DNA of 35,278 bases from a virus, in the IMG/VR virus record IMGVR_UViG_3300047550_003572, positions 1 through 35,278 of that record. One strand, given 5' to 3'. Under the pieces are notes generated by a model that saw only the letters and a program-made list of their open reading frames with translations, was not told the origin of the DNA and searched no databases. Position numbers and translations under genes: made by a program. Of this stretch, positions 16,314-34,679 are shown piece after piece; position 1 is the stretch's first letter; every line of letters begins with the position of its first letter.

Positions 16314-16336
16314 CGCCAAGCTGGGCGTTAAACGTA
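16314..16336 (+). promoter_or_regulatory. CGTC-hairpin/TTAAAC element, copy 1 (diverged)
   Basis: Stem CGCC with GGCG (6-nt loop), then TTAAACG; the start of 16368 follows about 31 nt later. Compared with the other copies, the T-A pair of the stem is replaced by C-G, so pairing is kept. It lacks the internal ATG of the other copies. Confidence 0.5.
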
Positions 16337-16367
16337 GCAACTTCAACTTCATTTCATTCAGTTCACA

Positions 16368-16547
16368 ATGGACATTTACTGCACTGTCAGCACCAAGGAA
16401 GCTGTGTATTTCTTCGTGGCTAACGACAGCATTGGCCTTGCTCGTATCACCAAGCAGATCCGTAAGGGCTGCAAGGGATACGATGCCAGCACAACAATGA
16501 CTGTCAATCAAGCACGACAGTTTTACAAGCAGCTTCAAGCCAGGTGA
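16368..16547 (+). CDS. small protein, 59 aa
   Basis: The protein reads MDIYCTVSTKEAVYFFVAND and ends RQFYKQLQAR, with two beta-strand-like stretches and a basic helix (ARITKQIRKGCKGYD). The ATG follows a CTTCAACTTCATTTCATTCA leader with no Shine-Dalgarno. It is the first gene after the switch region and lies under the first CGTC-hairpin element. The family is unknown. Confidence 0.65.
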   Translation: MDIYCTVSTKEAVYFFVANDSIGLARITKQIRKGCKGYDASTTMTVNQARQFYKQLQAR

Positions 16548-16626
16548 GTAATAGCTCCCATGCCAGGTGCAATGCCTGGCTCTGGTATTGCCACACACTG
16601 AGTGTGGCTTACATTCAACTCAACTC

Positions 16627-16812
16627 ATGACCAAGAATCAGTTCTTTATCCTTGTCATTGTTACTGCCATCGGTGCAGGCATTGCTAGTCAGGTTGGTGT
16701 ACACATGCTGGACCAAGCTGCTGCCAAGCAATGCCGTGAGCACGCATGGCCTAAAGCTGCGCATCAGATCCATATGGACTGGTGTGCAGACAATGGTTAC
16801 AAGACTAACTGA
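16627..16812 (+). CDS. small membrane-anchored protein with two cysteines
   Basis: I start at the ATG at 16627, right after CAACTCAACTC, not at the longer frame. The 61-aa protein has a hydrophobic anchor (residues 6-23, FFILVIVTAIGAGIASQV). A short outside domain follows with Cys at both ends of CREHAWPKAAHQIHMDWC. The W-P...HQ(I/V)HMDWC pattern is familiar from picocyanobacterial and cyanophage small proteins. The role is unknown; the pair of Cys could form a disulfide outside the membrane. Confidence 0.75.
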   Translation: MTKNQFFILVIVTAIGAGIASQVGVHMLDQAAAKQCREHAWPKAAHQIHMDWCADNGYKTN

Positions 16813-16824
16813 CGTTTGCACTTT

Positions 16825-16867
16825 CCCCTGGTGAGAGCCAGGGGTTACTGCAGACCTCAAGTCTGCA
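16825..16867 (+). promoter_or_regulatory. two-hairpin intergenic cassette, copy 1
   Basis: Hairpin A: CCCCTGG with CCAGGGG, loop TGAGAG (16825-16844). Hairpin B: TGCAGAC with GTCTGCA, loop CTCAA (16849-16867). A CTCAACTCAATTC leader and the start at 16905 follow. The stem of B differs from the other copies at matched positions, so pairing is conserved. Confidence 0.6.
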
Positions 16868-16904
16868 TCAAACTCAACTCAATTCACACCAACTGGAATC
16901 AATC

Positions 16905-17144
16905 ATGACTCCTAAAGCTGTTGAATATCTGCTCACGCAAGATGCCCGCCTGCTTGCCAGGAGGGATGCCCCTGTCATTGACCAGGAACTAGAGAGTCAG
17001 CGTCAAGCTGCACTCGATTTGTTTTTCCAATGGCAGGACGGCATGCGTGAGTTTCAAGACCTGATGCCATTCTGCGTGGTGCTCCAACGGAAGGTAGATC
17101 TCAACCGAGAACTACTCAAGTGGGAGTACCGTAACGCAGACTGA
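16905..17144 (+). CDS. hypothetical protein, 79 aa
   Basis: An all-helical, charged small protein (MTPKAVEYLLTQDARLLARR...) with no anchor and a single Cys. It is bracketed by hairpin cassettes on both sides, so it may be an independent transcript or processing unit. The ATG has no Shine-Dalgarno. The family is unknown. Confidence 0.65.
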   Translation: MTPKAVEYLLTQDARLLARRDAPVIDQELESQRQAALDLFFQWQDGMREFQDLMPFCVVLQRKVDLNRELLKWEYRNAD

Positions 17145-17156
17145 CTCTTGCACTTA

Positions 17157-17220
17157 ACCCTTCCGTTTGATACGAATTCGTATCGGACGGTGGGTTTTCT
17201 GCAGGACTCAATATCCTGTA
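17157..17220 (+). promoter_or_regulatory. two-hairpin intergenic cassette, copy 2, containing the palindrome
   Basis: Hairpin A has a 12-bp stem (17163-17174 with 17179-17190, including two G-T pairs) and an AATT loop, outer ACCC/GGGT pairing, and ends in TTTTCT. The second 16-bp palindrome (17169-17184) forms its top. Hairpin B: TGCAGGA with TCCTGTA, loop CTCAATA (17200-17220). Hairpin A could terminate transcription. Confidence 0.65.
17169..17184. repeat. perfect palindrome, copy 2
   Basis: Identical 16-mer to 16197-16212, here inside the stem-loop of the cassette before the SSB-like gene. Confidence 0.7.
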
Positions 17221-17243
17221 CCTCAATTCAACTCATTACTAAC

Positions 17244-17645
17244 ATGTTTACTCAAGCGATTGTCGGCAACATCTGCTACTTGGAAGTTGCTACCCATGAA
17301 GGTAGCGAGTTCCTTGCAGTTACCATGGCTGTCAACGACAAGTCTGGTAATGGTTGCCGCATCAAATTCAATAATGCCAATGGTTTGCTTACAGCATTTC
17401 GTAATGGCACCCTGGTCGTAGGACAAGAACTTATCCTCACGCAGTGGGAGGTTCGTATCAATACGATCCGCAGCCATTACATCAAGGATGGTCAGCTTAT
17501 TGCATTGCGTTACCCACAGATCAACCTCACGAATGTGAGGGCTATCATTGGTGCCGCACCGCAATATCTGCCTCCTGCTTCTGCAATACCAGTGGCTATG
17601 GCATCAGCACCAGCTGTGCCCACACTGGAAGAAATTCCATTCTGA
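17244..17645 (+). CDS. single-stranded DNA-binding protein-like, one OB domain
   Basis: I start at the ATG at 17244, after CTCAATTCAACTCATTACTA. The 133-aa protein looks like a short OB-fold (beta-rich residues 1-105, with LEVATHEGSEFLAVTMAVND and VGQELILTQWEVRI). A flexible Ala/Pro linker follows and the chain ends LEEIPF. An acidic tip ending in Pro-Phe is the hallmark of SSB tails that recruit other replication proteins. The OB core is diverged, so the call leans on fold pattern plus tip. A second SSB with two OB domains lies at 29983. Confidence 0.6.
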   Translation: MFTQAIVGNICYLEVATHEGSEFLAVTMAVNDKSGNGCRIKFNNANGLLTAFRNGTLVVGQELILTQWEVRINTIRSHYIKDGQLIALRYPQINLTNVRAIIGAAPQYLPPASAIPVAMASAPAVPTLEEIPF

Positions 17646-17658
17646 CTTCTGCATCAAG

Positions 17659-17703
17659 GGCCTTGGGTTACCAGGGCCTTTCTTGCAGGACTCAATATCC
17701 TGC
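17659..17703 (+). promoter_or_regulatory. two-hairpin intergenic cassette, copy 3
   Basis: Hairpin A: GGCCTTGG with CCAGGGCC (one G-T pair), loop GTTA, then TTTCTT (17659-17684). Hairpin B: GCAGGA with TCCTGC, loop CTCAATA (17685-17703). The start at 17728 follows. Confidence 0.6.
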
Positions 17704-17727
17704 TGTCATTACTTAATTATCTACACC

Positions 17728-18090
17728 ATGATGGAACTTACTTTTGATTATCAAGACATTAAACGGGTTTTTGAAATTATGAACATCACTATTGATGATG
17801 TTTATTTTGCTGTGAAGACTGAAAATTCTGGCAAACAGATTTCAGCACATATGTATTGGATTGGACAACCAGACGTTTTTAATTATTACCAAGATTTACC
17901 TTGTGAAATTGACAATGTTTATTTAGAGATTAAAGGCAAGTGGTGTCATATGGATTATGACGAATCAGATTTTTTGATTTATCAAGAAATTATTGATTGG
18001 CTGAAAAGACAGAAGCACGTTAAATGCCGTTATTTTATTGATGGCACTGGAACAGGTTCTATTGGTGATCCTGAAGGTCCGTTTAGCTGA
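17728..18090 (+). CDS. hypothetical acidic protein, 120 aa
   Basis: Starts at the double ATG (17728/17731) after a TTAATTATCTACACC leader. The chain is acidic and aromatic (MMELTFDYQDIKRVFEIMN, HMYWIGQPDVFNYYQDL, CHMDYDESDFLIYQE). It appears mixed alpha/beta, with no metal or ATP motif. Its DNA is more A/T-rich than neighbouring genes. The next gene (18170) is similar in size and has a similar acidic, Tyr-rich style with EIQDALKRFNIKEDDYY against DIKRVFEIMNITIDDVY. The two may be distant paralogues. Confidence 0.65.
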   Translation: MMELTFDYQDIKRVFEIMNITIDDVYFAVKTENSGKQISAHMYWIGQPDVFNYYQDLPCEIDNVYLEIKGKWCHMDYDESDFLIYQEIIDWLKRQKHVKCRYFIDGTGTGSIGDPEGPFS

Positions 18091-18102
18091 TTTCTGCACA
18101 TT

Positions 18103-18145
18103 CCCATCAGCAATGATGGGTTTCTGCAGGACTCAACATCCTGCA
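18103..18145 (+). promoter_or_regulatory. two-hairpin intergenic cassette, copy 4
   Basis: Hairpin A: CCCATCA with TGATGGG around a GCAA tetraloop, then TTTCT. Hairpin B: TGCAGGA with TCCTGCA, loop CTCAACA. An ATCTCAACTCAACC leader and the start at 18170 follow. Confidence 0.65.
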
Positions 18146-18169
18146 TCCACCCAACATCTCAACTCAACC

Positions 18170-18433
18170 ATGGCATTGACAACAGATCATCAAGAGATAC
18201 AAGACGCACTCAAGCGGTTCAACATTAAGGAAGATGATTATTATTTATTGTGTGAACCTAACGTTATTTATATCGTTTGGTGCACCAAGGGTCCAAATGC
18301 TTTTCATTTAGCATCGTTTACAGAATGCATGGACATTGACATCAAGGGGCAATGGTTCTGTTATGAAGAACTGCCCCCGAACTACGAACCAGAACCTTTG
18401 GTCTGCGTTCGATACATTCTCAACACACTCTGA
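18170..18433 (+). CDS. hypothetical acidic protein, 87 aa
   Basis: The ATG at 18170 follows CATCTCAACTCAACC. The N-terminal segment (DHQEIQDALKRFNIKEDDYYLL) and the later IKGQWFCYEELPPNYEPE resemble parts of the preceding 120-aa protein (IKGKWCHMDYDESDF), so I infer a duplicated, diverged pair. No catalytic motif is visible. It ends 1 nt before the small membrane protein gene. Confidence 0.65.
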   Translation: MALTTDHQEIQDALKRFNIKEDDYYLLCEPNVIYIVWCTKGPNAFHLASFTECMDIDIKGQWFCYEELPPNYEPEPLVCVRYILNTL

Positions 18434-18434
18434 C

Positions 18435-18641
18435 ATGAAACACATCGTTCCTCTTGGCAAGGGCAGGTTCATGCACCTTGATTCTTACGGTGAGTCTCAT
18501 AAGACTCGACGGTGGAATCTATTCATTGGTGTCATTGCCATTGCCATCAGTTCAATCACTATCGGTGCCATGCTTGGCATTGATATCACATCACCTCAAT
18601 CCTCACCTGACCATGAACAACTACATCGCGTTAGTCGCTGA
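18435..18641 (+). CDS. small single-span membrane protein, 68 aa
   Basis: The ATG comes 1 nt after the previous stop. Residues 1-27 are basic and polar, residues about 29-48 are a hydrophobic span (LFIGVIAIAISSITIGAMLG), and the tail is polar. The positive N-terminal flank predicts an inside N-terminus. The last 29 nt overlap the next gene. The function is unknown. Confidence 0.6.
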   Translation: MKHIVPLGKGRFMHLDSYGESHKTRRWNLFIGVIAIAISSITIGAMLGIDITSPQSSPDHEQLHRVSR

Positions 18642-18840
18642 CGCATCCGGTCGTTATGCCCATGTCTGGGGCAACGCACCAACATGGTCTAAGTTCTCAG
18701 ATCAACTCGAAGACATTGGCTGCGAGGTGATTGAGGACCAGACTGACGACTGGGTTGGTTGTAGCAAGGAGGAGATTGCTGAAGACTGCTTGTCAGTTCA
18801 TCAGCTCCTCAACGACTCTGACTTCATACCACACGGCTAG
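18613..18840 (+). CDS. hypothetical protein, 75 aa
   Basis: Starts at ATG 18613 inside the end of the membrane-protein gene (MNNYIALVADASGRYAHVWG). The chain is acidic, with LEDIGCEVIEDQTDDWVGCSKEEIAEDC and three Cys. Mixed alpha/beta content suggests a small folded domain. No family is recognised. Confidence 0.65.
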   Translation: MNNYIALVADASGRYAHVWGNAPTWSKFSDQLEDIGCEVIEDQTDDWVGCSKEEIAEDCLSVHQLLNDSDFIPHG

Positions 18841-18865
18841 TGTCCTACGTCAGCCAAACGCTACG

Positions 18866-18895
18866 GCTGGTACTTGCATCCTTGTACGTACCAGC
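18866..18895 (+). other. intergenic hairpin
   Basis: GCTGGTAC pairs with GTACCAGC over a 14-nt loop in the 97-nt gap before the gene at 18938. No T-run follows, so it is not a normal terminator. Confidence 0.5.
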
Positions 18896-18937
18896 TATTC
18901 TTGCTTTGCATCCATCAACTCAGACCATCTCATCTCA

Positions 18938-19375
18938 ATGGAAGCACTCAGCCAACTCGACGTTCAACACCCAGATCACGTATCTGTCATCACGCGTGAT
19001 GGCAAGGTCACGATCTCCGTTGTCAAAGACGGCACATCAGTGACACTTGGGTTCCCACTTAAAACCACTCCCCTCTCCATTACGCCACCAGCAGCACCGG
19101 CTGCAGTGGTGACAAAGCAAGTAACTGGAGATGGACCCAGGCTTAAGCCTGTGGGTGGAGTGGGTACTACACATGTTCGTTACACTGGCTACACACCAAA
19201 ACTTACTCCGTCTGATGTTCGTGACATCAAGATGATGGTCAACGATCCAGACATCATGAGTAAGTATTCAAGTAAGACGAAAGCATATGAAGAGATCGGT
19301 AAAGCATACAGTGTGACAGGCTGTGCCATTGGCAACATTGCACGTGGCATTGCCTGGCGTCACATCACTGTATGA
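18938..19375 (+). CDS. HTH DNA-binding protein (probable regulator)
   Basis: I start at the ATG at 18938 (MEALSQLDVQHPDHVSVITR), after a CATCTCA leader. The 145-aa protein has a beta-rich N-terminal part (to about 55), a Pro/Ala linker, and a C-terminal HTH. The HTH runs LTPSDVRDIKMMVNDPDI, then KAYEEIGKAYSVTGCAIGNIARGIAWRHI. This tail matches the HTH of the gene at 25179 in layout (T.SDI...S.A..Y.....I...IAWRH), so they share a domain. Likely a phage DNA-binding regulator; its target is unknown. Confidence 0.65.
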   Translation: MEALSQLDVQHPDHVSVITRDGKVTISVVKDGTSVTLGFPLKTTPLSITPPAAPAAVVTKQVTGDGPRLKPVGGVGTTHVRYTGYTPKLTPSDVRDIKMMVNDPDIMSKYSSKTKAYEEIGKAYSVTGCAIGNIARGIAWRHITV

Positions 19376-19395
19376 ACTACCTCTTCATGGGGTGA

Positions 19396-19418
19396 TACCA
19401 CCCTCTTCTGGGGTGGTA
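19396..19418 (+). other. intergenic hairpin
   Basis: TACCACCC pairs with GGGTGGTA, loop TCTTCTG. It is followed by CTATTCC rather than a T-run and lies just before the CGTC-hairpin element copy 2. Confidence 0.55.
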
Positions 19419-19425
19419 CTATTCC

Positions 19426-19449
19426 CGTCCTGAGTATGACGTTAAACTG
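19426..19449 (+). promoter_or_regulatory. CGTC-hairpin/TTAAACTG element, copy 2
   Basis: CGTC and GACG frame an 8-nt loop, followed by TTAAACTG; the start at 19476 is 26 nt downstream. The inside reads ATGACGTTAAACTG. Confidence 0.7.
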
Positions 19450-19475
19450 CTCATCCACTCAACTTCAACTCAACC

Positions 19476-19676
19476 ATGAGAGACCCTAACTTCATTGACG
19501 AACAACGCAATGCTGATTACCTCGATGCGATGGCAGACATTGCCTATGAGCAAGAGGAAGCAATGCGTGAAAGCAATCAATCTGACTGGGATGGTATCGA
19601 AGAGATCAGCTCAGCAGAACGCAACGCATGTGACCACTACAACGAGAGGTATGTAACCCATGACTACCATGACTGA
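19476..19676 (+). CDS. small acidic protein, 66 aa
   Basis: The ATG at 19476 follows CAACTTCAACTCAACC. The protein (MRDPNFIDEQRNADYLDAMAD...) is very acidic, helical and His/Asp-rich at its end (HYNERYVTHDYHD). No domain is recognised. The end overlaps the start of the next gene by 17 nt. Confidence 0.6.
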   Translation: MRDPNFIDEQRNADYLDAMADIAYEQEEAMRESNQSDWDGIEEISSAERNACDHYNERYVTHDYHD

Positions 19677-20154
19677 AACCAAGAATGTATGGGATGAAGA
19701 TCCAATCATCCTATGTATTGTCTTCATCTCAATCACAATCACACTCATTGGAAACTTCATCAAATGTCTATTGACACTGCACCAGCCCGCCGTTGGATCT
19801 CAAGGTACAACCTGCACTGTACCTTTGAAGACCAAGAACCAACCACCATTTGTGTCTACGAATGCGACAGCAGGTACGGTGGACCAGAAGAAGGAGGTTG
19901 GTACTACCAGCAAGGATGGCCCGTCAAAACGGTCTGTGTCTTCTCCAAGAAGCAAGCCATCCGTGAAGCAATCAAGCTTGAAGCAGAAGCAACAGAAGCC
20001 TACGGACCACAGCGTGACAACCTCGGTTGGGACGCATGGTCTGTTACCTTCTCCAACGGATACGCCAAGCCGTACCCGCAGGAGCGTCCGTACTACTGCT
20101 AACACACAACCCAAAGAACTCCGTGCCAAGCCAACTGGATTTGCCCAAGCTTGA
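19660..20154 (+). CDS. small membrane protein with a long tail overlapping another gene
   Basis: The 164-aa frame begins MTTMTETKNVWDEDPIILCI; an alternative start is the ATG at 19669. A hydrophobic span lies at about residues 16-44 (IILCIVFISITITLIGNFIKCLLTL). The tail of about 115 residues is rich in Ser, Thr, Lys, Gln and Pro. It shares its DNA with the 112-aa gene 19764-20102 in another frame. The span is convincing. The tail may be real or only an open shadow. Confidence 0.5.
   Translation: MTTMTETKNVWDEDPIILCIVFISITITLIGNFIKCLLTLHQPAVGSQGTTCTVPLKTKNQPPFVSTNATAGTVDQKKEVGTTSKDGPSKRSVSSPRSKPSVKQSSLKQKQQKPTDHSVTTSVGTHGLLPSPTDTPSRTRRSVRTTANTQPKELRAKPTGFAQA
19764..20102 (+). CDS. conserved cyanophage-type protein, 112 aa
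   Basis: The frame from ATG 19764 reads MSIDTAPARRWISRYNLHCT and continues with YECDSRYGGPEEGGWYYQQG and FSKKQAIREAIKLEAEA. The combination of a CDSRYGGPEEGGWY-like motif and a downstream helix looks like a small protein family I know from cyanophages, with no known function. The sequence is folded in style, so I treat this as the main gene of the region, wholly within the 164-aa frame. Confidence 0.65.
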   Translation: MSIDTAPARRWISRYNLHCTFEDQEPTTICVYECDSRYGGPEEGGWYYQQGWPVKTVCVFSKKQAIREAIKLEAEATEAYGPQRDNLGWDAWSVTFSNGYAKPYPQERPYYC

Positions 20155-20398
20155 CCCAAAGATCAAGCTATCAATCAACCAACGGAATCTTTGGTTCTAC
20201 TTCCTGAATCACAGGAAGAAACATAGAAACACACCGTGTTTTGTACCAAAGCTTCCGATGCAATCCACCAGGATTAGAGACTATCTACATGCATTAAGAC
20301 GACTGGAAGAATACGGATTAATACGTGTGGATCGTACAGCGTTTCGATACACCGGTTGGATCATGCTTGATCCAGAGAAACCGCAAGGTAACATGTAA
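20123..20398 (+). CDS. winged-helix-like protein, 91 aa (start uncertain)
   Basis: The strong part (SINQRNLWFYFLNHRKKHR, then QSTRIRDYLHALRRLEEYG and LIRVDRTAFRYTGWIML) is a helix, helix, wing pattern typical of small winged-helix DNA-binding proteins. The frame has an ATG at 20027 deep inside the previous gene. I prefer the GTG at 20123, which gives 91 aa and a short overlap. No Shine-Dalgarno decides it. A possible local transcription regulator. Confidence 0.5.
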   Translation: MPSQLDLPKLDPKIKLSINQRNLWFYFLNHRKKHRNTPCFVPKLPMQSTRIRDYLHALRRLEEYGLIRVDRTAFRYTGWIMLDPEKPQGNM

Positions 20399-20636
20399 CC
20401 AACATATAAGCTCAGCTTATATAACGGTAGCATTATTCGCTATTCGCGAATAGAGAATGCACAGGGTAAGGCCAGACACGAAGTGTGGTAAACACAGTGT
20501 TTAACTATGTGTGGTTATTAACCATCACAGTAAATCACCACAGCTTCGCTGGCCTACCCCCTGCACCCCCGAAAGGAGTACCAGGAGCACACTTATATTT
20601 CTATTAGATACATACCATTCATTCCACACACCAACC
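20399..20636 (+). other. 238-nt gap dense in inverted repeats
   Basis: No gene is supported here. It contains ATATAAGCT/AGCTTATAT (20404-20422), the palindrome CTATTCGCGAATAG (20440-20453) inside a larger GCATT...AATGC (20430-20460), and the multi-hairpin element 20464-20559. A GAAAGGAG sits near 20571 with no start codon at Shine-Dalgarno distance. Confidence 0.65.
20464..20559 (+). ncRNA. candidate multi-branch structured element
   Basis: GGGTAAGGCCAG (20464-20475) pairs with CTGGCCTACCC (20549-20559), 11 bp with one bulged A. Inside are short hairpins: ACAC/GTGT around 20476-20486, AAACACAGTGTTT (20490-20502) and TGGTTATTAACCA (20512-20524). This looks like a three- or four-way junction. 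It could be an RNA, a processing site or a DNA feature such as an origin; no match to a known RNA is claimed. Confidence 0.5.
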
Positions 20637-20927
20637 ATGAATCAACAACAGAAGTACCCAGAGATTACATGGACCAAGAATGAGTATGTCCATGTACAAC
20701 AAGCATTGACAATCCTCAAAGACATCATTGCTCGTGAGGATAAACGTCATGAGATGGATCAACATCTAACACCAAGCATGTACTCATTGTTAACCGATGA
20801 GATTATCCCCATGCTTGACAATGAATTGGATGTTGATTATTCAGATGATGAAATCACTGAACCACCCATGACACAATCAGAGTTACATGCAATTGCTTGG
20901 TCTGATCACCAGGCATTGCATTCATAA
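20637..20927 (+). CDS. hypothetical acidic protein, 96 aa
   Basis: Starts at ATG 20637 (MNQQQKYPEITWTKNEYVHV) after CACACACCAACC. The protein is helical (QQALTILKDIIAREDKRHEMD) and strongly acidic near the C-terminus (LDNELDVDYSDDEITEPP). No domain is recognised. It lies alone between the folded region and another hairpin. Confidence 0.6.
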   Translation: MNQQQKYPEITWTKNEYVHVQQALTILKDIIAREDKRHEMDQHLTPSMYSLLTDEIIPMLDNELDVDYSDDEITEPPMTQSELHAIAWSDHQALHS

Positions 20928-20952
20928 CGAAACATTAAGAGAATCTGTAGTT

Positions 20953-20979: not shown

Positions 20980-21031
20980 ACTGACCAGGTCTTAGACTCA
21001 ACCTCAATTCACTCTACAAATCACACATCAA

Positions 21032-22260: not shown

Positions 22261-22284
22261 CGTCCTGAGCATGACGTTAAACTG
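22261..22284 (+). promoter_or_regulatory. CGTC-hairpin/TTAAACTG element, copy 3
   Basis: CGTC and GACG frame an 8-nt loop, followed by TTAAACTG; the start at 22317 lies 32 nt downstream. It precedes the PcfJ-like gene. Confidence 0.7.
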
Positions 22285-22316
22285 CTCACTACCCTGAACT
22301 AAACCCTGAACCTACC

Positions 22317-24092
22317 ATGCAATTCCAACTCCCTACTAACCTGCAAACTGAGCTGCTTGCCTACGATCCAACGCTTAAGAAGTTGGCACGGCAAGAGAAA
22401 GCTCAAACATCTAAGACTAAGAAACCTAAGTATCCTGTTGGACTGCCACCAGTCCTGATACCAAACGATGTGGTGCGTTCTTCATTGTATGAAGGTGCAA
22501 TTGATGACATCAATGCTAATCCTGCACCAGAGCGTTTCCATGAATTCCGTATGCCTGTTGGCACCATACCCGATGTTGAATACATCACACATGCAGTGAT
22601 CTATCACTGGGAAGGTTTATGGGTAGCAGCATGGCTGCCGCCTAAGGGCAAGGAATCTGAATACATCTACGCCTATACACATTGTTACAAGGACACTGCA
22701 ACAACACGCAAGATGTTGATGCACAGTATTGTGTCAGACACTACATTCTTGCGTGAAACTGTTGGTCGCAGCGATTACCTTATTAAGACTGTATATGTCA
22801 CCAAGGAATTTATTCAACAATCAGAGAGATGGCGTGATCGTCCATGGTCTATGTGCAATAGCTACGGCCAGAAGGGCAGACTGATGGGCGAAGCTGTGCG
22901 TCGATTTGACAAACAGCTATTTGCATCTGTACCTACATGGGATGATTCAGTCAATAGCTTTGAGCGTCTACGTATTGGTAATGATCTATTCAAAGTATTG
23001 TTTGAACGTATCTCTGGTAAATACAAAGATAAGTACTTTGATATCTGCCAAGAGAAATATCAGATGACACTTGACAATTGGCAGCTGACATCTGATACAT
23101 TCTTTGAATTAATTGATGTATGTCATACAAACGACATTGGCTATGGTTATGTTGGTATCCGTTCTATTTGTGATAGCAAAAAGATTCTAAGTACACCATT
23201 CTTTCGTAAGTGGATTCAATTGCAATGCGATTTAGCCACGCAACGATTCCATGATCCAGACAACTGTACACGTAAAAGTATTGTTGTACCAATACAACGC
23301 ATCTATCAACTGGCAGATGCAATTAGTACAATCAATCGCATCTGGCCTGATACTCCAATTGATTACTATCAGAATCATCTTGATGTACTGCTTGGCATCC
23401 GTCGTCTCTATGAGCCAGACGTTCCTCTGTGCAAAGCATGGTTGCGTGAGCACATGCCTGTTGCATCATTGTTTCAGATCATGAACAAATACTATACAGA
23501 CAAAGTAGCAGAATCTACTGCTGCATCAGAAAGGCGTCGTCGTTGGGATTGGGATGAGGACACCGACCATTGGCTGTTCCGATTCAATGAACTCAACGAC
23601 ACATTCTCAATGCTTGCTCGTATCTTTGATAACGGCAAGACAATTGATCCGCCACGTCGTTGGCGCATCACAGAATTCCATGATCATGTGCAAGCAGAAT
23701 CATGGAAAATTCAGAATCCAAATCACTCACTACCACAAGATCTATTCCCACAACCTGTCAAGGTTACTTATCAAGATGACAACTGGTCATTCTTCCAGCC
23801 CATTGATACACATCAACTTGCGCAATGGGGCCAGGCCGTACGCAATTGCGTTGGCAATGCTGCATCGTATGCCGAAGGTGTACGTAAGAAGCAACACTTC
23901 ATTGTCCTTGGTATGTTGAATGGCAAGCCTACATTTACCATTCAGCTTAAGGTGAACATGGGTGTCATGTCCGTTGAGCAGATTGTTGGTTTTGCCAACA
24001 CCAGACTCAGCGATACAGAACGTAACACTTACACGCAAGTGTTTAGCAACGCATTGCGCATTCGTGATGAGCAACTAAAATCAGAACGTTGA
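22317..24092 (+). CDS. PcfJ-like protein of unknown function, 591 aa
   Basis: The C-terminal domain (about residues 490-580) reads LAQWGQAVRNCVGNAASYAEG, then a central KKQHFIVLGMLNGKPTFTIQL and EQIVGFANTRLSD. The xxHCVG/NCVG...Y...V pattern followed by a beta-sheet and a Q(I/M).G..N motif is the core of the PcfJ family, found on plasmids and phages and biochemically unknown. The N-terminal 480 residues are mixed helix and strand, unlike any domain I recognise. It is the largest gene between the switch region and the polymerase. Confidence 0.65.
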   Translation: MQFQLPTNLQTELLAYDPTLKKLARQEKAQTSKTKKPKYPVGLPPVLIPNDVVRSSLYEGAIDDINANPAPERFHEFRMPVGTIPDVEYITHAVIYHWEGLWVAAWLPPKGKESEYIYAYTHCYKDTATTRKMLMHSIVSDTTFLRETVGRSDYLIKTVYVTKEFIQQSERWRDRPWSMCNSYGQKGRLMGEAVRRFDKQLFASVPTWDDSVNSFERLRIGNDLFKVLFERISGKYKDKYFDICQEKYQMTLDNWQLTSDTFFELIDVCHTNDIGYGYVGIRSICDSKKILSTPFFRKWIQLQCDLATQRFHDPDNCTRKSIVVPIQRIYQLADAISTINRIWPDTPIDYYQNHLDVLLGIRRLYEPDVPLCKAWLREHMPVASLFQIMNKYYTDKVAESTAASERRRRWDWDEDTDHWLFRFNELNDTFSMLARIFDNGKTIDPPRRWRITEFHDHVQAESWKIQNPNHSLPQDLFPQPVKVTYQDDNWSFFQPIDTHQLAQWGQAVRNCVGNAASYAEGVRKKQHFIVLGMLNGKPTFTIQLKVNMGVMSVEQIVGFANTRLSDTERNTYTQVFSNALRIRDEQLKSER

Positions 24093-27023: not shown

Positions 27024-27047
27024 CGTCCTGGGCATGACGTTAAACTG
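27024..27047 (+). promoter_or_regulatory. CGTC-hairpin/TTAAACTG element, copy 4
   Basis: CGTC and GACG frame an 8-nt loop, followed by TTAAACTG; the start at 27071 is 23 nt downstream. It precedes the GP88-like gene. Confidence 0.7.
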
Positions 27048-27070
27048 TTTGCACTTCAACTCAACTCATC

Positions 27071-27838
27071 ATGAAACTGCTCAAGTTCTCCACCGGTAAC
27101 GGCAAGCTCAAGAACCGTCTCATCTTCTCGCTGCCAGCGGGTTACGCATGCCCTCACGCTGGTGTGTGCAAGACCATGGCTGATCGCACCACAGGTCTGA
27201 TCCATGACTTGCCGCAGTACACAGGCACCACAGCAGAGGAGTTCCGTTGCTTTGCTGCCATGGCAGAGACCAGGCCTACCGTGCGGGAAGCACGCTGGTA
27301 TAACTGGGATCTCATCCGTGAAACAATCCATGCCAATGGCAACCAGGCACTGCTGCTGCGTGATTTGATTGATCTATCACTCACCATGCAACCGCCTAAG
27401 GAATTGGTGCGTGTGCATGAGTCAGGTGATTTCTTTACAGAGAATTACCTCAAGGCATGGTTGATGGTTGCCAAGCAACGACCCAAGCAAACCTTCTATG
27501 CCTACACCAAGTCCCTTGGTATGTGGCTCAATCTGCGTGACATCATTCCATCTAACTTTTATCTCACCGCATCGTACGGTGGCACACTCGATTACTTAAT
27601 TCCCAAGCATCAAGATGTGTTTCAACGTATTGCGTACGTTGTTTACACAGAGCAAGAGGCAGCGGAACGCGGCCTTGAGATTGATCATGATGACAGCCAC
27701 TGCTTAGGTAATAAACCATTTGCACTACTGGTGCATGGCTCCCAGCGTGCTGGAACTGACGCATCTAAAGCGTTGTCTCAACGCAAGAAGGAAGGTGGAT
27801 TTGTGGGCTATGGCACATCAAACAAGAAGACTTCCTGA
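27071..27838 (+). CDS. GP88-like phage protein, 255 aa
   Basis: The order of motifs fits the mycobacteriophage gp88 family: FSLPAGYACPHAGVC (residues 19-33), EFRCFAAMAETRPTVREARW (about 57-76), RVHESGDFF (about 114-122), LTASYGG, and the late EIDHDDSHC. Conserved Cys and His residues could hold a metal, but the reaction is unknown. The ATG follows CAACTCAACTCATC. The family is widespread in phages and has no proven function. Confidence 0.8.
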   Translation: MKLLKFSTGNGKLKNRLIFSLPAGYACPHAGVCKTMADRTTGLIHDLPQYTGTTAEEFRCFAAMAETRPTVREARWYNWDLIRETIHANGNQALLLRDLIDLSLTMQPPKELVRVHESGDFFTENYLKAWLMVAKQRPKQTFYAYTKSLGMWLNLRDIIPSNFYLTASYGGTLDYLIPKHQDVFQRIAYVVYTEQEAAERGLEIDHDDSHCLGNKPFALLVHGSQRAGTDASKALSQRKKEGGFVGYGTSNKKTS

Positions 27839-29929: not shown

Positions 29930-29934
29930 TTCCT

Positions 29935-29959
29935 CGTCCTTAGGTATGACGTTAAACTG
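29935..29959 (+). promoter_or_regulatory. CGTC-hairpin/TTAAACTG element, copy 5
   Basis: CGTC and GACG frame a 9-nt loop, followed by TTAAACTG; the start at 29983 is 23 nt downstream. It precedes the double-OB SSB. Confidence 0.7.
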
Positions 29960-29982
29960 CCTTACCACTACCCATCACACAC

Positions 29983-30789
29983 ATGAACAACTTTGTTTCT
30001 GCTTATGCACAAACCTTGGAAGAACCAAGGGAGGTGTATACATCTGCTACATCAACCGCCATCCGTTGCATGGTAGGGATTCCAGCAGTTGGTAACAAAG
30101 CAGCAACTCACATTGAACTCAATGTCTACGGCAAAAACGCAGAGCGATTTGCACGAGCGCCCAAGGGAGCCCATGTGTACATTCACGGCGCCAAGCTACG
30201 TCATGATCTCGACACCAGAACGCACTCGCTCCATGGAGGAACTATTGCAGCGGTTAATGATCAGTTCCCAATTTTCAATGACGTCATCCTTGTTGGACGA
30301 TGTGTCAAAGATTTAGATGGTGATGCCAGGGCATTTAAGACCACCGAAGGTGGGCTGATGATTTGCCAACAAACATTATCTGTTAGCACGGGTAAAAATC
30401 AGGCAGATTTATTTAACTTTTATGCAATTAATTCAGCTAGTGATAAGCTGAATAACGCAGAACTTTTGTTGAATTTTACACGTAAAGGCACTGGTCTTAC
30501 TTTGCGTGGTCGTCTTGTTACCGATAGCTGGACTGATCAATCCACTAAAGAACGCAAGTCGCAAACCAAAATTCAATTAGTCAGCATGACCCTTGCTCCA
30601 AGGGGAGCAGCAGAGCCTAAAACGGTGCAACCACAAACAACTGTGCGTGATGCCACGGAAGTCCAACCCCTTTGGAACAACACCAACAACGCTCCTGTTG
30701 ATCCTTGGAACGTGGCTTCTGGTGGTGGCCTTCCTGACCTACCTGGTCATTATGGTCCTGCTCCTGAACTAGACGATCAACCTTTCTGA
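29983..30789 (+). CDS. ssb: single-stranded DNA-binding protein with two OB domains
   Basis: The 268-aa chain has two OB-like halves. The first covers about residues 1-100 (HIELNVYGKNAERFARAPKGA, then VYIHGAKLRHD). The second, about 105-208, is more typical (FNDVILVGRCVKDLDGD, then LFNFYAINSASDK and GLTLRGRLVTDSWTDQSTKE). An acidic-tipped linker ends LDDQPF, an SSB-type partner-binding tip. Domain two resembles the cyanobacterial SSB core, while domain one is diverged. It lies directly after the polymerase, as expected for a replication protein. Confidence 0.8.
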   Translation: MNNFVSAYAQTLEEPREVYTSATSTAIRCMVGIPAVGNKAATHIELNVYGKNAERFARAPKGAHVYIHGAKLRHDLDTRTHSLHGGTIAAVNDQFPIFNDVILVGRCVKDLDGDARAFKTTEGGLMICQQTLSVSTGKNQADLFNFYAINSASDKLNNAELLLNFTRKGTGLTLRGRLVTDSWTDQSTKERKSQTKIQLVSMTLAPRGAAEPKTVQPQTTVRDATEVQPLWNNTNNAPVDPWNVASGGGLPDLPGHYGPAPELDDQPF

Positions 30790-31022
30790 TGCAAGAACGC
30801 ACCCTCACTTTTCTCTGCAAAGAGGATGACTTTACAATCTCGTTTGAGTCCCAAGGTGTTACATCACATGAGGTAATGCACCACTTTGTTCAGTTTATGG
30901 TTGGCATTGGTTATGGACGGGAAACTGTTCAAGATGCCATGCGTGAAATCGTGGAAGAACATGATGATTACCTCAAGTCTTATGAAGGACTCAAAGCTGA
31001 TCTTCCCTTCGAGGTAAACTGA
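30789..31022 (+). CDS. hypothetical acidic protein, 77 aa
   Basis: ATG overlaps the SSB stop (TGATG). The chain (MQERTLTFLCKEDDFTISFE...) has a small beta-hairpin followed by helices rich in Glu (QDAMREIVEEHDDYLKSYE). It could serve the SSB/polymerase unit, but no family is known. Confidence 0.6.
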   Translation: MQERTLTFLCKEDDFTISFESQGVTSHEVMHHFVQFMVGIGYGRETVQDAMREIVEEHDDYLKSYEGLKADLPFEVN

Positions 31023-31027
31023 GGTCA

Positions 31028-31050
31028 CGTCCTGGGATGACGCTAAACTC
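31028..31050 (+). promoter_or_regulatory. CGTC-hairpin/CTAAACTC element, copy 6
   Basis: CGTC and GACG frame a 7-nt loop, followed by CTAAACTC; the start at 31076 is 25 nt downstream. The change TTA to CTA in the ATG-frame is synonymous (Leu). The inner ATG (31037) is in frame with the next gene. Confidence 0.65.
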
Positions 31051-31075
31051 ATCCACTGTTCACCCTGAACACACC

Positions 31076-32176
31076 ATGACACAAACACCGATTGATCCCC
31101 TGACTGATGAATGGATGGATAACATCCAAGCTGAAACTGTCACTCCTCCTTCCCTGAAAACTCTCAACAAAATGACCACGAAAAAATCCTCTGCTCTTGC
31201 TACCCGTGGCCTGGAATCTTTTCAAATGTTCCAGTCCAAAGAATTTGTTTCTGGTTACCAGAATCTTGTTACTATTCAACCTCTAAATAAATCCAAGACA
31301 CGAGGTTGGTTTATTCGTAAGTCTGACCTTGATACTTGTGGTTGGACTGCAACTGAAGATGAGTTTGCCAAAGGCTCAGTTATCTGGGGTTACAAGCAAA
31401 CCTTTGGCATGGCACCCAATACATCCGTCGAAGAAGGCTTGAACTTTGTTGAGCCGCGCATTCAAATTCTGTTGCGCTCACCACTAATGGTGGAAGAGAC
31501 AACTGGGATGCGCATGACAATTGGTACCTTTGAGAATCCAGAGGTCAAAGAATTATTTGAAGCTGACAAGATTGCAGCTGATCTTGCTTCCAGTAAAGGT
31601 GAGATGTACAAGCGTAAGTACAGTGTGCGTACCAAGTACTTGGTATTTATTGTTACCAAGGACAATAAGCGTGCGCACAAGATCCCAATGGTACTGACAC
31701 TTAAGGGATTGAATGGCACTGATGTTTCAGATAAAGTGCGGCTGTATGAAAAAGAAATGTCTAAGTGTTTGAGCAAAGCGCTTGATTCTGAGGTGCCACT
31801 GGCATTCAACGAGAAGTTCTATGCCACCACTGTGTTTGCTCCCGTCCTTGCCAACGAGATGCGTGGTGCAAACAACGTAGAGATCTGTGCTATTGAATCG
31901 TTTGATATCCCTGACTACAGCAGCCAGGAAGATGCAATCGAATCATTGAACCGTCTCTCAATCCCTGATGAAGATCGGGAATCCACCTGGAAAATGCAGG
32001 AGATGTTTGATGACTACATCAACGCACATTCGCGCCAAGACGCTGAAAAGCTTGGGGGCGCTTACGGCATTAAAGCTGGTGTACAAATTCTTCCCGAATC
32101 ACGTACCACTGAAGCCATTGATGTCAAATCCTTGCCCTCCCGAGATGAAGTAACAGGTGAAGACTCAAGTCTCTGA
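31076..32176 (+). CDS. hypothetical protein near the replication genes, 366 aa
   Basis: I start at ATG 31076 (MTQTPIDPLTDEWMDNIQAE). The in-frame ATG 31037 would add MTLNSSTVHPEHT encoded by the CGTC element. The chain is mixed alpha/beta; the part from about 55-250 has beta-strand-rich blocks such as GWFIRKSDLDTCGW and SVRTKYLVFIVTKDNK. It may resemble DUF5895-type cyanobacterial proteins, but that is weak memory. A disordered acidic tail ends it. It lies after the SSB, so a replication-linked role is a guess. Confidence 0.6.
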   Translation: MTQTPIDPLTDEWMDNIQAETVTPPSLKTLNKMTTKKSSALATRGLESFQMFQSKEFVSGYQNLVTIQPLNKSKTRGWFIRKSDLDTCGWTATEDEFAKGSVIWGYKQTFGMAPNTSVEEGLNFVEPRIQILLRSPLMVEETTGMRMTIGTFENPEVKELFEADKIAADLASSKGEMYKRKYSVRTKYLVFIVTKDNKRAHKIPMVLTLKGLNGTDVSDKVRLYEKEMSKCLSKALDSEVPLAFNEKFYATTVFAPVLANEMRGANNVEICAIESFDIPDYSSQEDAIESLNRLSIPDEDRESTWKMQEMFDDYINAHSRQDAEKLGGAYGIKAGVQILPESRTTEAIDVKSLPSRDEVTGEDSSL

Positions 32177-32434
32177 TTGAGTTTTAATTGGGGGATTAAC
32201 AATATCATCTTCATTAATGGCAACGTTATTGAAGATGAACATATCTTGAACCAATCCCCTAATTACCCCCTGGCGATTCGTGGCGATCTGCGCAAGCAAG
32301 GTCGCCATTTCCTTTAACTCACTTACTGATCCACAATCTTGTATGGAGCGTTTGATTTTTTCTAACCAAAACTTATCATCAATCGTTGGTTCGATCTGGA
32401 ATTGAGTCAACGGTACGTACTTAATCTCTTCCAT
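32165..32434 (-). CDS. small conserved protein on the opposite strand, 89 aa
   Basis: MEEIKYVPLTQFQIEPTIDD begins this protein, which continues KFWLEKIKRSIQDCGSVSEL and KEMATLLAQIATNRQGVIRG. The DKFWLEKIK..I.....S..ELK.MA..LA.IATxRQ...KGL pattern looks like a conserved cyanophage protein of unknown role. It is the only minus-strand gene in the right half. Its 3' end overlaps the convergent 31076 gene by 12 nt. No Shine-Dalgarno is seen before the ATG. Confidence 0.65.
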   Translation of the reverse strand: MEEIKYVPLTQFQIEPTIDDKFWLEKIKRSIQDCGSVSELKEMATLLAQIATNRQGVIRGLVQDMFIFNNVAINEDDIVNPPIKTQSET

Positions 32435-32512
32435 TGTGTATTAAATTGTTACCGTTTATTCTAACCATACAATTAAACTGTATTCAAATCTTCCAATTGC
32501 ATTAACATTTCC

Positions 32513-32710
32513 ATGAAACGTGAAGAAAAAGCGGCAGTCAAAGCAGCAGGTGCCACGGCCTTGCTAGCTGGTGCAGTAGCTGCTACTATTGCAAATCCTG
32601 TCGCATGGGCTGCCGTCCTTTACGGTGCCTATAGGATGGGGAAGACGGCCTACCAGGCGTCTAAAGACCGGCAAGCCGCTGGTATCAAAGAAGATGATCT
32701 CTTCATCTGA
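32513..32710 (+). CDS. small hydrophobic protein, holin-like architecture
   Basis: The 65-aa chain (MKREEKAAVKAAGATALLAG...) has a charged N-terminus, a long Ala/Gly/Val hydrophobic stretch (about 12-38, ALLAGAVAATIANPVAWAAVL), and a polar C-terminus. One span with a basic start could be a holin or other membrane protein; no clear family signature. No Shine-Dalgarno is present. Confidence 0.6.
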   Translation: MKREEKAAVKAAGATALLAGAVAATIANPVAWAAVLYGAYRMGKTAYQASKDRQAAGIKEDDLFI

Positions 32711-32733
32711 ATCCAACTCACTTAACTCAACTC

Positions 32734-33687
32734 ATGACAACCAAACACTTTGCCACAGTCCTGGAACTCAATGCTGCCCAGGCATGCATCTATACCCGTA
32801 CTAACATCCGTCGTGCGTATCCCGACTTTGATGACACCGAGATTGCTGGCATTGGTGTGCGAGATAACAATTGCATTGTGGTGCGTCGCGATGGTACTGA
32901 GCAAACTTACGACAGGACACTGATTAAATCTGCTTACAGTACCTACACCCATCGCCTCAAGAATTTCTTCTCCTACCTCGGACCTAACTACCGTGGTCCC
33001 AGTGTCTGGCGTAATAACGCTTACGTACTCTTCAAAGGATGGACCTACACCCATGCTCTCGGACACCTCACACCAAACGCCAAGCTCCAAGCCCACTGGG
33101 CAGATCGATTCATCCATCTCTCAGACCCAAACAAACTCATCACCCTGCTTCAGTCTGACCAGACGGACCTGGGCCATTTGGTGGCGCCCGACGGACTTCG
33201 GCTTCCGAATCAACCGCTTGATCTGGACTCTGAACTGGACTCTGATACCGAACAAGAGCCGCTGTTTGGCAAACCTACCTGCTCGTGTGGGTCGTTTCAA
33301 CGTCAGCTCAACAACTTATCTGCTTTCCAAGAAGAGATCCAGGGATTTGAACCGTGGTGTATACACCTGACCTGGTTCCAGAAGTATCGTGAGTTGCTCT
33401 GCAAACGCACGGAACTACGCAATGCAGCACCTAGTGGTGTGTCTGATAAGTGCGTCGCTTGGTGGTATGCCCCTCCCGTTGACGCCAACAGTGACGGACG
33501 TTTTGTATTGCTACATACCAAGTCAGGTGCACAAGCACCGCTCAGCCACTGGCGTACCTACAAACCCAATGACGTATTGACACAGCACCATGCGTGGGAT
33601 CTGTTCTTCAATATGATGGAGGCAGGCTACGTTCCATTCCCTGGTACTGCACTACCTCAACTCAAGGAGGCTGTTAAGAAATCATGA
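32734..33687 (+). CDS. SWIM-type zinc-finger protein, 317 aa
   Basis: Residues 183-211 give Cys-x-Cys (C183, C185) and, 23 residues later, Cys-x-His (C209, H211), the CxCx(n)CxH pattern of SWIM zinc fingers. They lie between an acidic linker (DLDSELDSDTEQEPLFG) and a soluble C-terminal domain. The N-terminal part (1-150) is mixed and unknown. SWIM domains bind DNA or protein; which holds here is unclear. The ATG follows TTAACTCAACTC. Confidence 0.65.
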   Translation: MTTKHFATVLELNAAQACIYTRTNIRRAYPDFDDTEIAGIGVRDNNCIVVRRDGTEQTYDRTLIKSAYSTYTHRLKNFFSYLGPNYRGPSVWRNNAYVLFKGWTYTHALGHLTPNAKLQAHWADRFIHLSDPNKLITLLQSDQTDLGHLVAPDGLRLPNQPLDLDSELDSDTEQEPLFGKPTCSCGSFQRQLNNLSAFQEEIQGFEPWCIHLTWFQKYRELLCKRTELRNAAPSGVSDKCVAWWYAPPVDANSDGRFVLLHTKSGAQAPLSHWRTYKPNDVLTQHHAWDLFFNMMEAGYVPFPGTALPQLKEAVKKS

Positions 33688-33845
33688 TCCTTTCCAATGG
33701 CAAATACAAACTTGATTTAGAGATTGATGAAGAAACTTATTGGCTTCTCATTAAGGCAGGTGCAGAATATAAAATGCACATAGAAGAATACGCTGAATCT
33801 GTTCTTACAAACCATGCCCTCCTTCATCGACAAACTACACATTGA
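33684..33845 (+). CDS. small protein, 53 aa
   Basis: The protein reads MILSNGKYKLDLEIDEETYW, then LLIKAGAEYKMHIEEYAESV. The ATG overlaps the previous stop (ATGA), and AAGGAGG lies somewhat far upstream (about 11 nt). The last 32 nt overlap the next gene. The function is unknown. Confidence 0.6.
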   Translation: MILSNGKYKLDLEIDEETYWLLIKAGAEYKMHIEEYAESVLTNHALLHRQTTH

Positions 33846-34029
33846 ATACAAAGAAAACCCAGATGGTGGTGGTGACATCACCATCGAATGGGATGAAAAT
33901 GACTTAGAACTTGCTGAATGGACATCATGGGGTGAAGACAAACAAAAACAATTCATCCTTGATGCCCTTACTATTGCTGTATCTGACGCTCTTCCTGAAG
34001 ATGAAATTGAACCCCTGCGGCTTACCTGA
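33814..34029 (+). CDS. conserved small acidic phage protein, 71 aa
   Basis: MPSFIDKLHIEYKENPDGGG, then DITIEWDENDLELAEWTSWG and EDKQKQFILDALTIAVSDAL. The pattern IEYKENPDGxGxITIxWDEND...WTSWGEexQxxFIxDAL is one I know from cyanophage and cyanobacterial small proteins without a known role. It is flanked by overlaps on both sides (32 and 29 nt), so translation is coupled. Confidence 0.7.
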   Translation: MPSFIDKLHIEYKENPDGGGDITIEWDENDLELAEWTSWGEDKQKQFILDALTIAVSDALPEDEIEPLRLT

Positions 34030-34327
34030 AGATCAATTCATTGAGATCTTCCGAGAAAAAGCTAAGTTCCTTGGCAAACTATTAGTTGCTTTTGATCCAG
34101 GTACTCGTCAAGTCATGGACGAGAAACTTGCCTGGGAGATGTTCCAAGAATGTGTGTATGCAGCAGAAGCTGAAGCACAAAAGATCTCAGACCCTGATGG
34201 TAAAAATGATCCTTACTTGCCAGAGATCTATGTATCTCGCAAAGAAATGATGGATGAAATTAAAGCTGTCAGCAATAAAGTTGACACTCTTATGGATTAT
34301 CTCAGCAAATGGCAACTCAAAAAATGA
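34001..34327 (+). CDS. hypothetical protein with C-terminal coiled coil, 108 aa
   Basis: I choose ATG 34001 (MKLNPCGLPEDQFIEIFREK); the longer frame would start inside the previous gene. The chain is helical and acidic, with FGRLL-like and MDEKLAWEMFQECVYAAEAE blocks, and a C-terminal coiled coil (EIKAVSNKVDTLMDYLSKW). No family is recognised. It ends in ATGA with the next gene. Confidence 0.6.
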   Translation: MKLNPCGLPEDQFIEIFREKAKFLGKLLVAFDPGTRQVMDEKLAWEMFQECVYAAEAEAQKISDPDGKNDPYLPEIYVSRKEMMDEIKAVSNKVDTLMDYLSKWQLKK

Positions 34328-34650
34328 CTGACCAACACCCAATCACCCCACCGCCGGAGCTGATCCGCAAGTGGAACGAAGAAGCTGCCACTGCACCAAT
34401 GGCAGATCAGCGTTACATCGCCACCCAAGCCGCCCGCTGGGGCGCCGACCAGGAGCTGGAGGCGTGCTGTGAGTGGCTTTGCGCTGTTGAGATATGGAAA
34501 ACCGGTGCAGACCGTCTGCGCTCTAACCGCCGCCCCAAGCCGCCGAGCTTGAAGGAGCAGGCGCTACATGCGTTGCTTCACATTGATCAAGGGCAACACA
34601 CCGAGCGCTACCACATCATCCGCCGCGCACTGGAGCAGCTCGATGATTAA
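34324..34650 (+). CDS. GC-rich conserved picocyanobacterial-phage protein, 108 aa
   Basis: I start at ATG 34324 (MTDQHPITPPPELIRKWNEE), which overlaps the previous stop; the start at 34309 is less likely. The pattern ITPPPELxxxW...YIATQAARWGADQELEACCEWL...RRPKPPSLKEQAL...IRRALE is a family I recognise from picocyanobacterial phages and metagenomes. The function is unknown. Base composition is GC-rich against its surroundings, as with the gene at 26686. Confidence 0.75.
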   Translation: MTDQHPITPPPELIRKWNEEAATAPMADQRYIATQAARWGADQELEACCEWLCAVEIWKTGADRLRSNRRPKPPSLKEQALHALLHIDQGQHTERYHIIRRALEQLDD

Positions 34651-34655
34651 TAAAA

Positions 34656-34679
34656 CGTCCTAGTCATGACGTTAAACTG
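34656..34679 (+). promoter_or_regulatory. CGTC-hairpin/TTAAACTG element, copy 7
   Basis: CGTC and GACG frame an 8-nt loop (CTAGTCAT), followed by TTAAACTG; the start at 34710 is 30 nt downstream. The inner ATG runs straight into a TGA (MTLN). Confidence 0.7.

Follow-up and report, generated by a model that had tools for sequence, protein, structure and literature searches.

Seven copies of a repeated element in the window

The window analysed here is the entire IMG/VR virus record IMGVR_UViG_3300047550_003572 (35,278 bases), from a virus akin to Synechococcus phage S-EIV1: 15% of the right arm aligns with that phage at 75% DNA identity, and the PcfJ-like proteins of both are 43% identical across 99% of the length. 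The window contains seven copies of a short element that an initial annotation, made from the letters alone, had described as a CGTC hairpin shared by several gene clusters; all seven were recovered at the same coordinates, on the + strand only. Judged from the sequences, this element is, with near certainty, an H-type RNA pseudoknot of 25–28 nucleotides (nt), in which stem 1 (CGTC/GACG) is followed by a spacer (TTAAAC) and stem 2 (NNNNA/UNNNN) joins the loop of stem 1 to the tail behind the spacer. The copies and the open reading frames (ORFs) that follow them, all on the + strand, are:

16314..16338, +, copy 1, a sub-type with stem 1 CGCC/GGCG, loop AAGCTG, spacer TTAAACG and stem 2 GCTG/TAGC
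16368..16547, +, ORF of 59 amino acids 3′ of copy 1, ATG confirmed at 16368
19426..19452, +, copy 2, CGTC CT GAGTA T GACG TTAAAC TGCTC
19476..19676, +, ORF of 66 amino acids 3′ of copy 2, no match in a PHROGs search
22261..22287, +, copy 3, stem 2 GAGCA/TGCTC, stop codon at 22253-22255, 5 nt before
22317..24092, +, PcfJ-like gene, PF14284 at 24.3 bits, slightly below the cut-off of 25
27024..27050, +, copy 4, stem 2 GGGCA/TGTTT with three G-U pairs, no ORF stop close upstream
27071..27838, +, GP88-like gene, PF17338, E 4e-42
29935..29962, +, copy 5, 9-nt loop, stem 2 AGGTA/TGCCT, 5 nt past the stop of the PolA gene
29983..30789, +, single-strand DNA-binding protein (SSB) gene, PF00436, phrog_44
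31028..31054, +, copy 6, 7-nt loop, stem 2 GGAT/ATCC, 5 nt past a stop
31076..32176, +, DUF5895 gene 3′ of copy 6
34656..34682, +, copy 7, stem 2 AGTCA/TGACT, 5 nt past a stop
34710..34829, +, ORF of 39 amino acids 3′ of copy 7, ATG confirmed at 34710

The exact string GACGTTAAACTG occurs five times in the window and, with up to two mismatches, nine times against 2.13 expected, a number reached in none of 100 shuffles; six of these matches are copies 2–7 and the other three lie at 9746, 17755 and 30916, while copy 1 is missed. A geometric descriptor with free stem letters (any 4-bp stem with G-U allowed, a loop of 4–10 nt, [TC]TAAAC and at least four contiguous loop-tail pairs) retrieved exactly the seven copies on the + strand and none on the − strand, compared with a mean of 0.505 and a maximum of 3 on both strands of 200 dinucleotide shuffles. 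As the initial annotation had noticed, copy 1 changes its stem and keeps the pairing; it now represents a distinct sub-type (loop RAGCTG, spacer TTAAACG, tail YAGC) with 10 copies in other viral loci. Elements of this type (CGTCRAGCTGGACGTTAAACGYAGC) were seen in loci L025, L046, L084, L105 and L118, and several of them precede AGACAACTCRRCGGTCG-like bases instead of a start codon, so that they are perhaps part of a larger leader RNA.

Pseudoknot fold and its covariation

In all seven window copies the loop pairs with the 3′ flank, that is, with the bases after TTAAAC, which makes the structure a pseudoknot. Of the hairpin first proposed, the stem proved real and covarying, but it is only half of the structure. 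Loop and tail also change together across other viral contigs (GAGCA/TGCTC, GGACA/TGTCC, GGTCA/TGACC, GGCCA/TGGCC and CACCA/TGGTG). Among 152 unique copies, with identical contexts or identical 27-mers (many of them Staphylococcus rows) counted once, 147 retain all of the inner four stem 2 pairs and 130 the full set of five; when the tails were reassigned at random in 500 shuffles, all five pairs were found in 50.6 copies on average and in 65 at most. Stem 1 was evaluated in 215 candidates chosen by stem 2, and is fully paired (G-U allowed) in 194 and not in the other 21. The paired stems are of the types CGTC/GACG (161), GGAC/GTCC (10), TGTC/GACA (7), AGTC/GACT (4), CGAC/GTCG (3), GGTC/GACC (2), AGAC/GTCT (2) and TCTC/GAGA (1), plus two G-U types with two copies each.

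Covariation was quantified in an alignment of 99 distinct 27-mers, retrieved by a key without any pairing requirement. Stem 1 is complete in 94 rows and stem 2 has at least four pairs in 95; overall, 95.6% of the cells are paired vs. 81.5% after shuffling, and covariation amounts to 0.467 vs. 0.196 (sd 0.012; none of 500 shuffles as high). Sliding the register of the alignment left at most 52% of the cells paired, with covariation of at most 0.113. Changes on both sides occur at seven of the nine pairs, which taken alone is a weaker measure (shuffled mean 5.8, with 6 of 500 shuffles reaching 7). The search key fixes the C-G pair adjacent to the loop and the A-U pair, and these two invariant pairs therefore prove nothing. 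The conserved unpaired bases are CY and UAAAC. Minimum-free-energy folding, done for three of the seven copies, showed stem 2 in copy 3 and stem 1 in copy 7, while copy 5 formed neither of them; we rely on covariation because this kind of folding cannot draw pseudoknots.

Pattern searches in IMG/VR gave a similar picture. CGTCCTNNNNATGACGTTAAACTG, with stem CGTC/GACG, is present in at least 118 stretches and its compensated counterpart with stem CGAC/GTCG in at least 120, whereas each of the single changes that break stem 1 was found in 0 stretches, as were the reversed long and short patterns. Within the CGAC set, the inner four pairs of stem 2 are kept in 16 of 17 distinct copies (mean of 9.0 and maximum of 13 in 1000 shuffles); 14 of these 17 27-mers are absent from the 99-row alignment and three are shared with it.

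Placement and distribution

The location of the element was analysed in 201 copies with enough flanking sequence, after omitting nine of 210 near contig ends; copies with fewer than three pairs in stem 1 or four in stem 2 were excluded here and from the counts of downstream structure, and the set includes orthologous sites, which are not independent. In 118 of the 201 the copy starts at most 20 nt past the stop of a same-strand ORF, compared with 6.6% of random same-strand positions and with 20 of the same sites when the opposite strand is considered; 12 copies have no same-strand stop within 300 nt. The gap from stop to copy is exactly 5 nt in 61 copies, 5–8 nt in 94 and less than 5 nt in only one. 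Likewise, two copies lie inside a same-strand ORF of at least 100 codons, vs. 52% of random positions, and 13 inside an opposite-strand ORF of that size. More independent evidence comes from the window, where copies 3, 5, 6 and 7 lie 5 nt behind four different genes (stops ending at 22255, 29929, 31022 and 34650); copy 2 begins 50 nt past a stop.

Gaps measured on annotated records are of 5, 5 and 6 nt in S-EIV1; 6 in each of the Paracoccus, Mycobacterium and Arthrobacter phages; 8 in Acaryochloris; 5, 7 and 22 in Cylindrospermopsis; 9 and 9 in Staphylococcus; about 9 in S-H35; 10 in Latilactobacillus; 17 in Anoxybacillus and in Moorella; and 24 in D6E. Longer ones occur in the Microviridae record (43), phiEF-1.1 (48), Nostoc (99), Lj771 (170) and Microcystis (173). 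The copies of the Christensenellales and Vibrio phages overlap short annotated ORFs of the opposite strand, and that of the Moraxella phage has no annotated coding sequence upstream. In the CGAC set the gap is 5–17 nt in 38 of 51 copies, 0 in two and 22 in one, and the remaining ten have no stop within 40 nt.

On the other side, the initial annotation had placed the copies 23–34 nt before start codons; the position before starts was confirmed, and the distance, measured from the 27-nt element, is replaced by 20–29 nt (27 for each of copies 1 and 7). Beyond the window, the first downstream ORF starts at a median of 29 nt (10% at 20 and 90% at 144). Given the footprint of ribosomes, such spacing is about the closest that a fold can sit to both a terminating and an initiating ribosome without being melted. 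None of the seven genes that follow a copy has a Shine-Dalgarno (SD)-like match within the 20 nt ahead of its start. The string CAACTCA, with 22 occurrences on the + strand of the window and two on the −, is often shortly 5′ of start codons (in the right arm, for instance, at 16616, 17229, 19466, 21799, 27057, 32728 and 35037), and is a possible non-SD leader. Not all copies precede coding sequences: in locus L144 a long copy ends 5 nt 5′ of a tRNA-Met gene and a short one lies directly 5′ of tRNA-Lys, and copies are also found directly before tRNA genes in the Nostoc and Arthrobacter phages.

The search of relatives proposed in the initial annotation showed that the element is widespread. The records named here are those whose copy was read, and most of the 137 matched records are not among them. 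The usual spacer is present in cyanophages, such as Synechococcus phage S-EIV1 (four copies, including those before its SSB and GP88-like genes, the latter product 70% identical to its window counterpart), Nostoc phage NMeng1, Acaryochloris phage A-HIS1 and Cylindrospermopsis phage Cr-LKS4 (three copies). It also occurs in S. aureus phages B166 and 80, Lactobacillus phage phiEF-1.1, prophage Lj771, Anoxybacillus phage A403, phage D6E, Moorella phage MTATph1 (two copies), a gut Christensenellales phage, Vibrio phage D456 and Latilactobacillus phage TMW 1.1365 P1, the last with stem 2 reduced to three pairs. Copies with a changed spacer were read in Microcystis phage Mwe-JY13, Mycobacterium phage Labelle, Arthrobacter phage Molivia, Paracoccus phage ParMal1, Synechococcus phage S-H35, Moraxella phage Mcat4 and a Microviridae record marked as unverified. 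In one search, 90 of 120 matched records were from Staphylococcus, with copies mostly not read individually. Scaffold genes lie downstream of the copies in phages 80, phiEF-1.1, D6E, A403 and Lj771.

In bacteria and archaea, the strict pattern was found in only six stretches among 84,980 genomes (two Enterococcus, Fictibacillus, Hornefia and two metagenome-assembled genomes, MAGs), and the exact consensus query matched none of 20,395 E. coli records. Among plasmids the consensus query gave eight weak matches, two of which, copies from Acinetobacter, were read; these small plasmids (L288 and L289) contain coremin-like stretches (see below) at about position 1000, near replication genes.

Some further features of the window were observed. 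An inverted-repeat-like stretch (GGGGTGATACCACCC ... TGGGGTGGTAC) lies directly 5′ of copy 2 (19380-19425, +), and GGGGTGGTATCAC-like strings also precede copies in loci L019, L051 and L064. There is a tRNA-Leu gene with anticodon TAA at 24353-24430 (+). On the − strand, a segment of about 195 bases stands twice in tandem at about 7145-7525, in nearly identical versions that each contain a small reading frame, and an 18-base GGTACCTTGTGCTCCGGT-like unit is repeated several times within a structural-arm gene (13340-13410).

Likeness to coremin and proposed function

The phage element likely belongs to the type of coremin (GUCCGAAGACGUUAAACUAC), the exoribonuclease-resistant RNA xrRNA-C of beny-, cucumo- and other RNA viruses (Dilweg, Peer and Olsthoorn 2023, PMC10520033). 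According to that article, coremin halts Xrn1 one base 5′ of its first stem and requires a small following hairpin; loops YGAD and YGNNAD are functional, as are one of 7 and one of 8 bases, arrest is abolished when the C and U of the spacer are replaced, and the structure was described as unsolved in 2023 (PMC10520033). The terms “phage”, “bacteri-” and “RNase J” have zero occurrences in the paper.

The phage element retains the core GUC-loop-GAC-GUUAAACU, with an A before the last loop base and tolerance for longer loops. The first stem of coremin (about 4 bp, GUC/GAC) is found in the main phage type, CGTC/GACG, together with compensated variants, and the spacer GUUAAACU with its essential C and U in window copies 2–7, copy 1 having TTAAACG. 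TAAACT is present in all rows of the 99-row alignment, but the search key demanded it; BLAST (not megablast), which is independent of the key, gave the spacer variants AAAAAC, TGAAAC and TAAAAC. Unlike coremin, the main phage form has an 8-base loop, CYNNNNAN, whose NNNNA forms with the tail a covarying helix of 5 bp, and its copies are in viruses of bacteria, between cistrons and before start codons.

The hexaloop form of coremin, YGNNAD, was found in 18 viral stretches of IMG/VR, this pattern being the search criterion, and ten of them are on contigs of 30–74 kb, the size of tailed DNA phages; the tetraloop form was sought in the same database and not found. In locus L151, a hexaloop copy (CGTCCGAAATGACGTTAAACTAC) lies 15 nt past a PolA ORF (67% identical to that of the window) and before an SSB ORF (53%), the same site that is occupied by the long copy 5 in the window and by the SSB copy in S-EIV1. 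Additionally, long and short forms are found in tandem, twice, in locus L045. These arrangements indicate that the two forms stand in for each other. A tRNA supposed from the letters after the L045 tandem copies was dropped, as ARAGORN calls none.

Other known RNAs are less close. Rfam covariance models gave no match at the copies, either in window positions 16000-35278 (E up to 10) or in six loci with copies from named phages (E up to 5). Flaviviral and tombusvirus-like xrRNAs also have a pseudoknot, thought to brace the RNA against 5′-3′ exonucleases, but they are larger (one construct has 59 nt) and unrelated in sequence (PMC5760640, PMC12191101).

Small pseudoknots linked with phages or small RNAs include that of T4 gene 32 and the pistol ribozyme, which has UUAAA after its first stem; a pistol-like ribozyme was considered and dropped, since no third stem or cleavage site was seen. 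In bacteria, the polypurine stabiliser of phage SP82 protects the 5′ end of mRNA through ribosome binding; such stabilisers likewise shield downstream mRNA from 5′-dependent decay, although they have no pseudoknot.

From its fold, conservation, placement and coremin core, all read in the sequences, we infer that the element is an intercistronic, coremin-type pseudoknot of polycistronic phage mRNA that would halt RNase J-type decay and thereby spare the downstream gene (probability of about 0.68); it is thus the portion of the message behind it that is probably protected. The message would be opened when an endonuclease cleaves it (in cyanobacteria RNase E, in many Gram-positives RNase Y) or when the 5′ triphosphate is removed, and a 5′-3′ exoribonuclease, RNase J, would then digest the upstream cistron and stop just 5′ of stem 1, where the pairing of the tail within the loop would brace the 5′ strand. 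The downstream cistron would keep a protected 5′ end and outlive its neighbours. In the window, this would benefit the PcfJ-like, GP88-like, SSB and DUF5895 genes; elsewhere, it would benefit the scaffold genes of several Gram-positive phages and some tRNAs. The spacing, rarely under 5 nt past a stop and 20–29 nt before a start, may let ribosomes end and start without melting the knot.

The cited sources fit several of these steps. RNase J from Synechocystis has robust 5′ exonuclease activity, which is blocked by a 5′ triphosphate, and its full deletion was not achieved (PMC7283877); a cut by RNase E followed by trimming by RNase J is the model favoured as more consistent (PMC7283877; PMC10989914); and in vitro, bacterial RNase J1 stalls at a flaviviral xrRNA (PMC5760640). 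E. coli, with no consensus match, is said to lack RNase J (PMC10989914), which we count in favour of RNase J as the enzyme. A match to RNase J over the cut-off was found in four of five copy-bearing genomes examined, out of six. The accessible text of a study of S. aureus 5′ ends does not mention phage (PMC3937233).

Several observations weigh against this interpretation. The long form, including copies 2–7, has a longer loop with U or C as its second base, not the G of YGAD and YGNNAD, and the following hairpin that coremin requires is not consistently present after the phage copies: downstream structure of −3 kcal/mol or lower was found for 15 of 17 short forms and 62 of 207 long forms, and the z-scores of both differ (p 0.009; 17 vs. 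257). The five-pair second helix might replace the hairpin of the short form, a weak proposal because close relatives are present among the short rows and z falls below −1 in only 8 of 17. The fifth copy-bearing genome, a Bacteroidetes MAG, has no RNase J match over the cut-off. Copies also occur in Moraxella and Vibrio phages and in Acinetobacter plasmids; to our knowledge RNase J is not expected in Gammaproteobacteria, so these do not fit a view based on RNase J only. For copies 1, 2 and 4 there is no stop codon a short way upstream, and the 5-nt rule would equally suit an effect on ribosomes.

This last point leads to an unlikely, although not negligible, alternative, that the pseudoknot either meets a ribosome paused at the upstream stop or shapes the site where the following gene is initiated, and in this way controls termination, reinitiation or translation of that gene. 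The peak at exactly 5 nt past stop codons resembles the spacing of frameshift and readthrough pseudoknots, the genes that start 20–29 nt after the window copies have no SD-like match, and coremin slows scanning ribosomes (PMC10520033). However, the distances to starts vary in Gram-positive phages, the gap past the stop is often over 5 nt, and a role directed to ribosomes would not explain the copies directly before tRNA genes. We find it less plausible that a protein of the phage or the host binds the element, for autoregulation or antitermination, as with the pseudoknot of T4 gene 32 or with nut sites. The strong conservation of the unpaired CY and UAAAC, and the fact that a copy precedes the SSB gene in the window, in S-EIV1 and in L151, would agree with it, but phages with distant hosts have copies before tRNAs as well as before genes that are unrelated, for which one common cognate protein is hard to imagine, and the core matches an RNA that acts on Xrn1 in vitro without a protein partner (PMC10520033).

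Two other options had been raised in the initial annotation. A promoter in the DNA would account for a repeated, strand-specific element before genes, and copy 4 comes after TATCCTATAGT, judged by its letters only; nevertheless, we consider it very improbable, since conservation tracks the pairing of two interlocked RNA helices on one strand, with compensatory changes, and the many copies that start 5 nt past a stop would put the core promoter inside the upstream gene. Practically discarded is a conserved leader peptide MTLN(C), in spite of ATGACGTTAAAC in copies 2–5 and 7 and ATGACGCTAAAC in copy 6: the ATG is lacking in 20 of the 99 distinct copies and ATGACG[TC]TAAAC in 44, and the six window frames, of 4, 8, 17, 21, 49 and at least 100 codons, have no common end. 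In turn, the proposal of one common signal before gene clusters, acting at the RNA level, is supported.

We found no phage element of this sort in the open-access literature on phage pseudoknots, coremin and exoribonuclease-resistant RNAs, a search mostly outside subscription papers and preprints, so that a report unseen by us is possible; the coremin papers retrieved concern, in their available text, plant and other RNA viruses. If an exonuclease-resistant element is indeed involved, it would be, within that literature, the first class of exoribonuclease-resistant RNA in viruses of bacteria. The more than 100 natural variants are comparative data for coremin, and a size of about 27 nt suits biochemistry and crystallography. 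The element might also serve as a portable means of stabilising mRNA in cyanobacteria and Gram-positive bacteria, and offers a direct test of how phages achieve unequal expression within operons. We lean, by a little, towards a broader view in which tailed DNA phages of cyanobacteria, Gram-positives and other hosts use this minimal knot as a movable intercistronic module against RNase J, setting the life of their mRNA gene by gene, as eukaryotic RNA viruses use the same knot against Xrn1. Whether by shared descent or by convergence, this would represent one solution to two unrelated 5′-3′ exonucleases.

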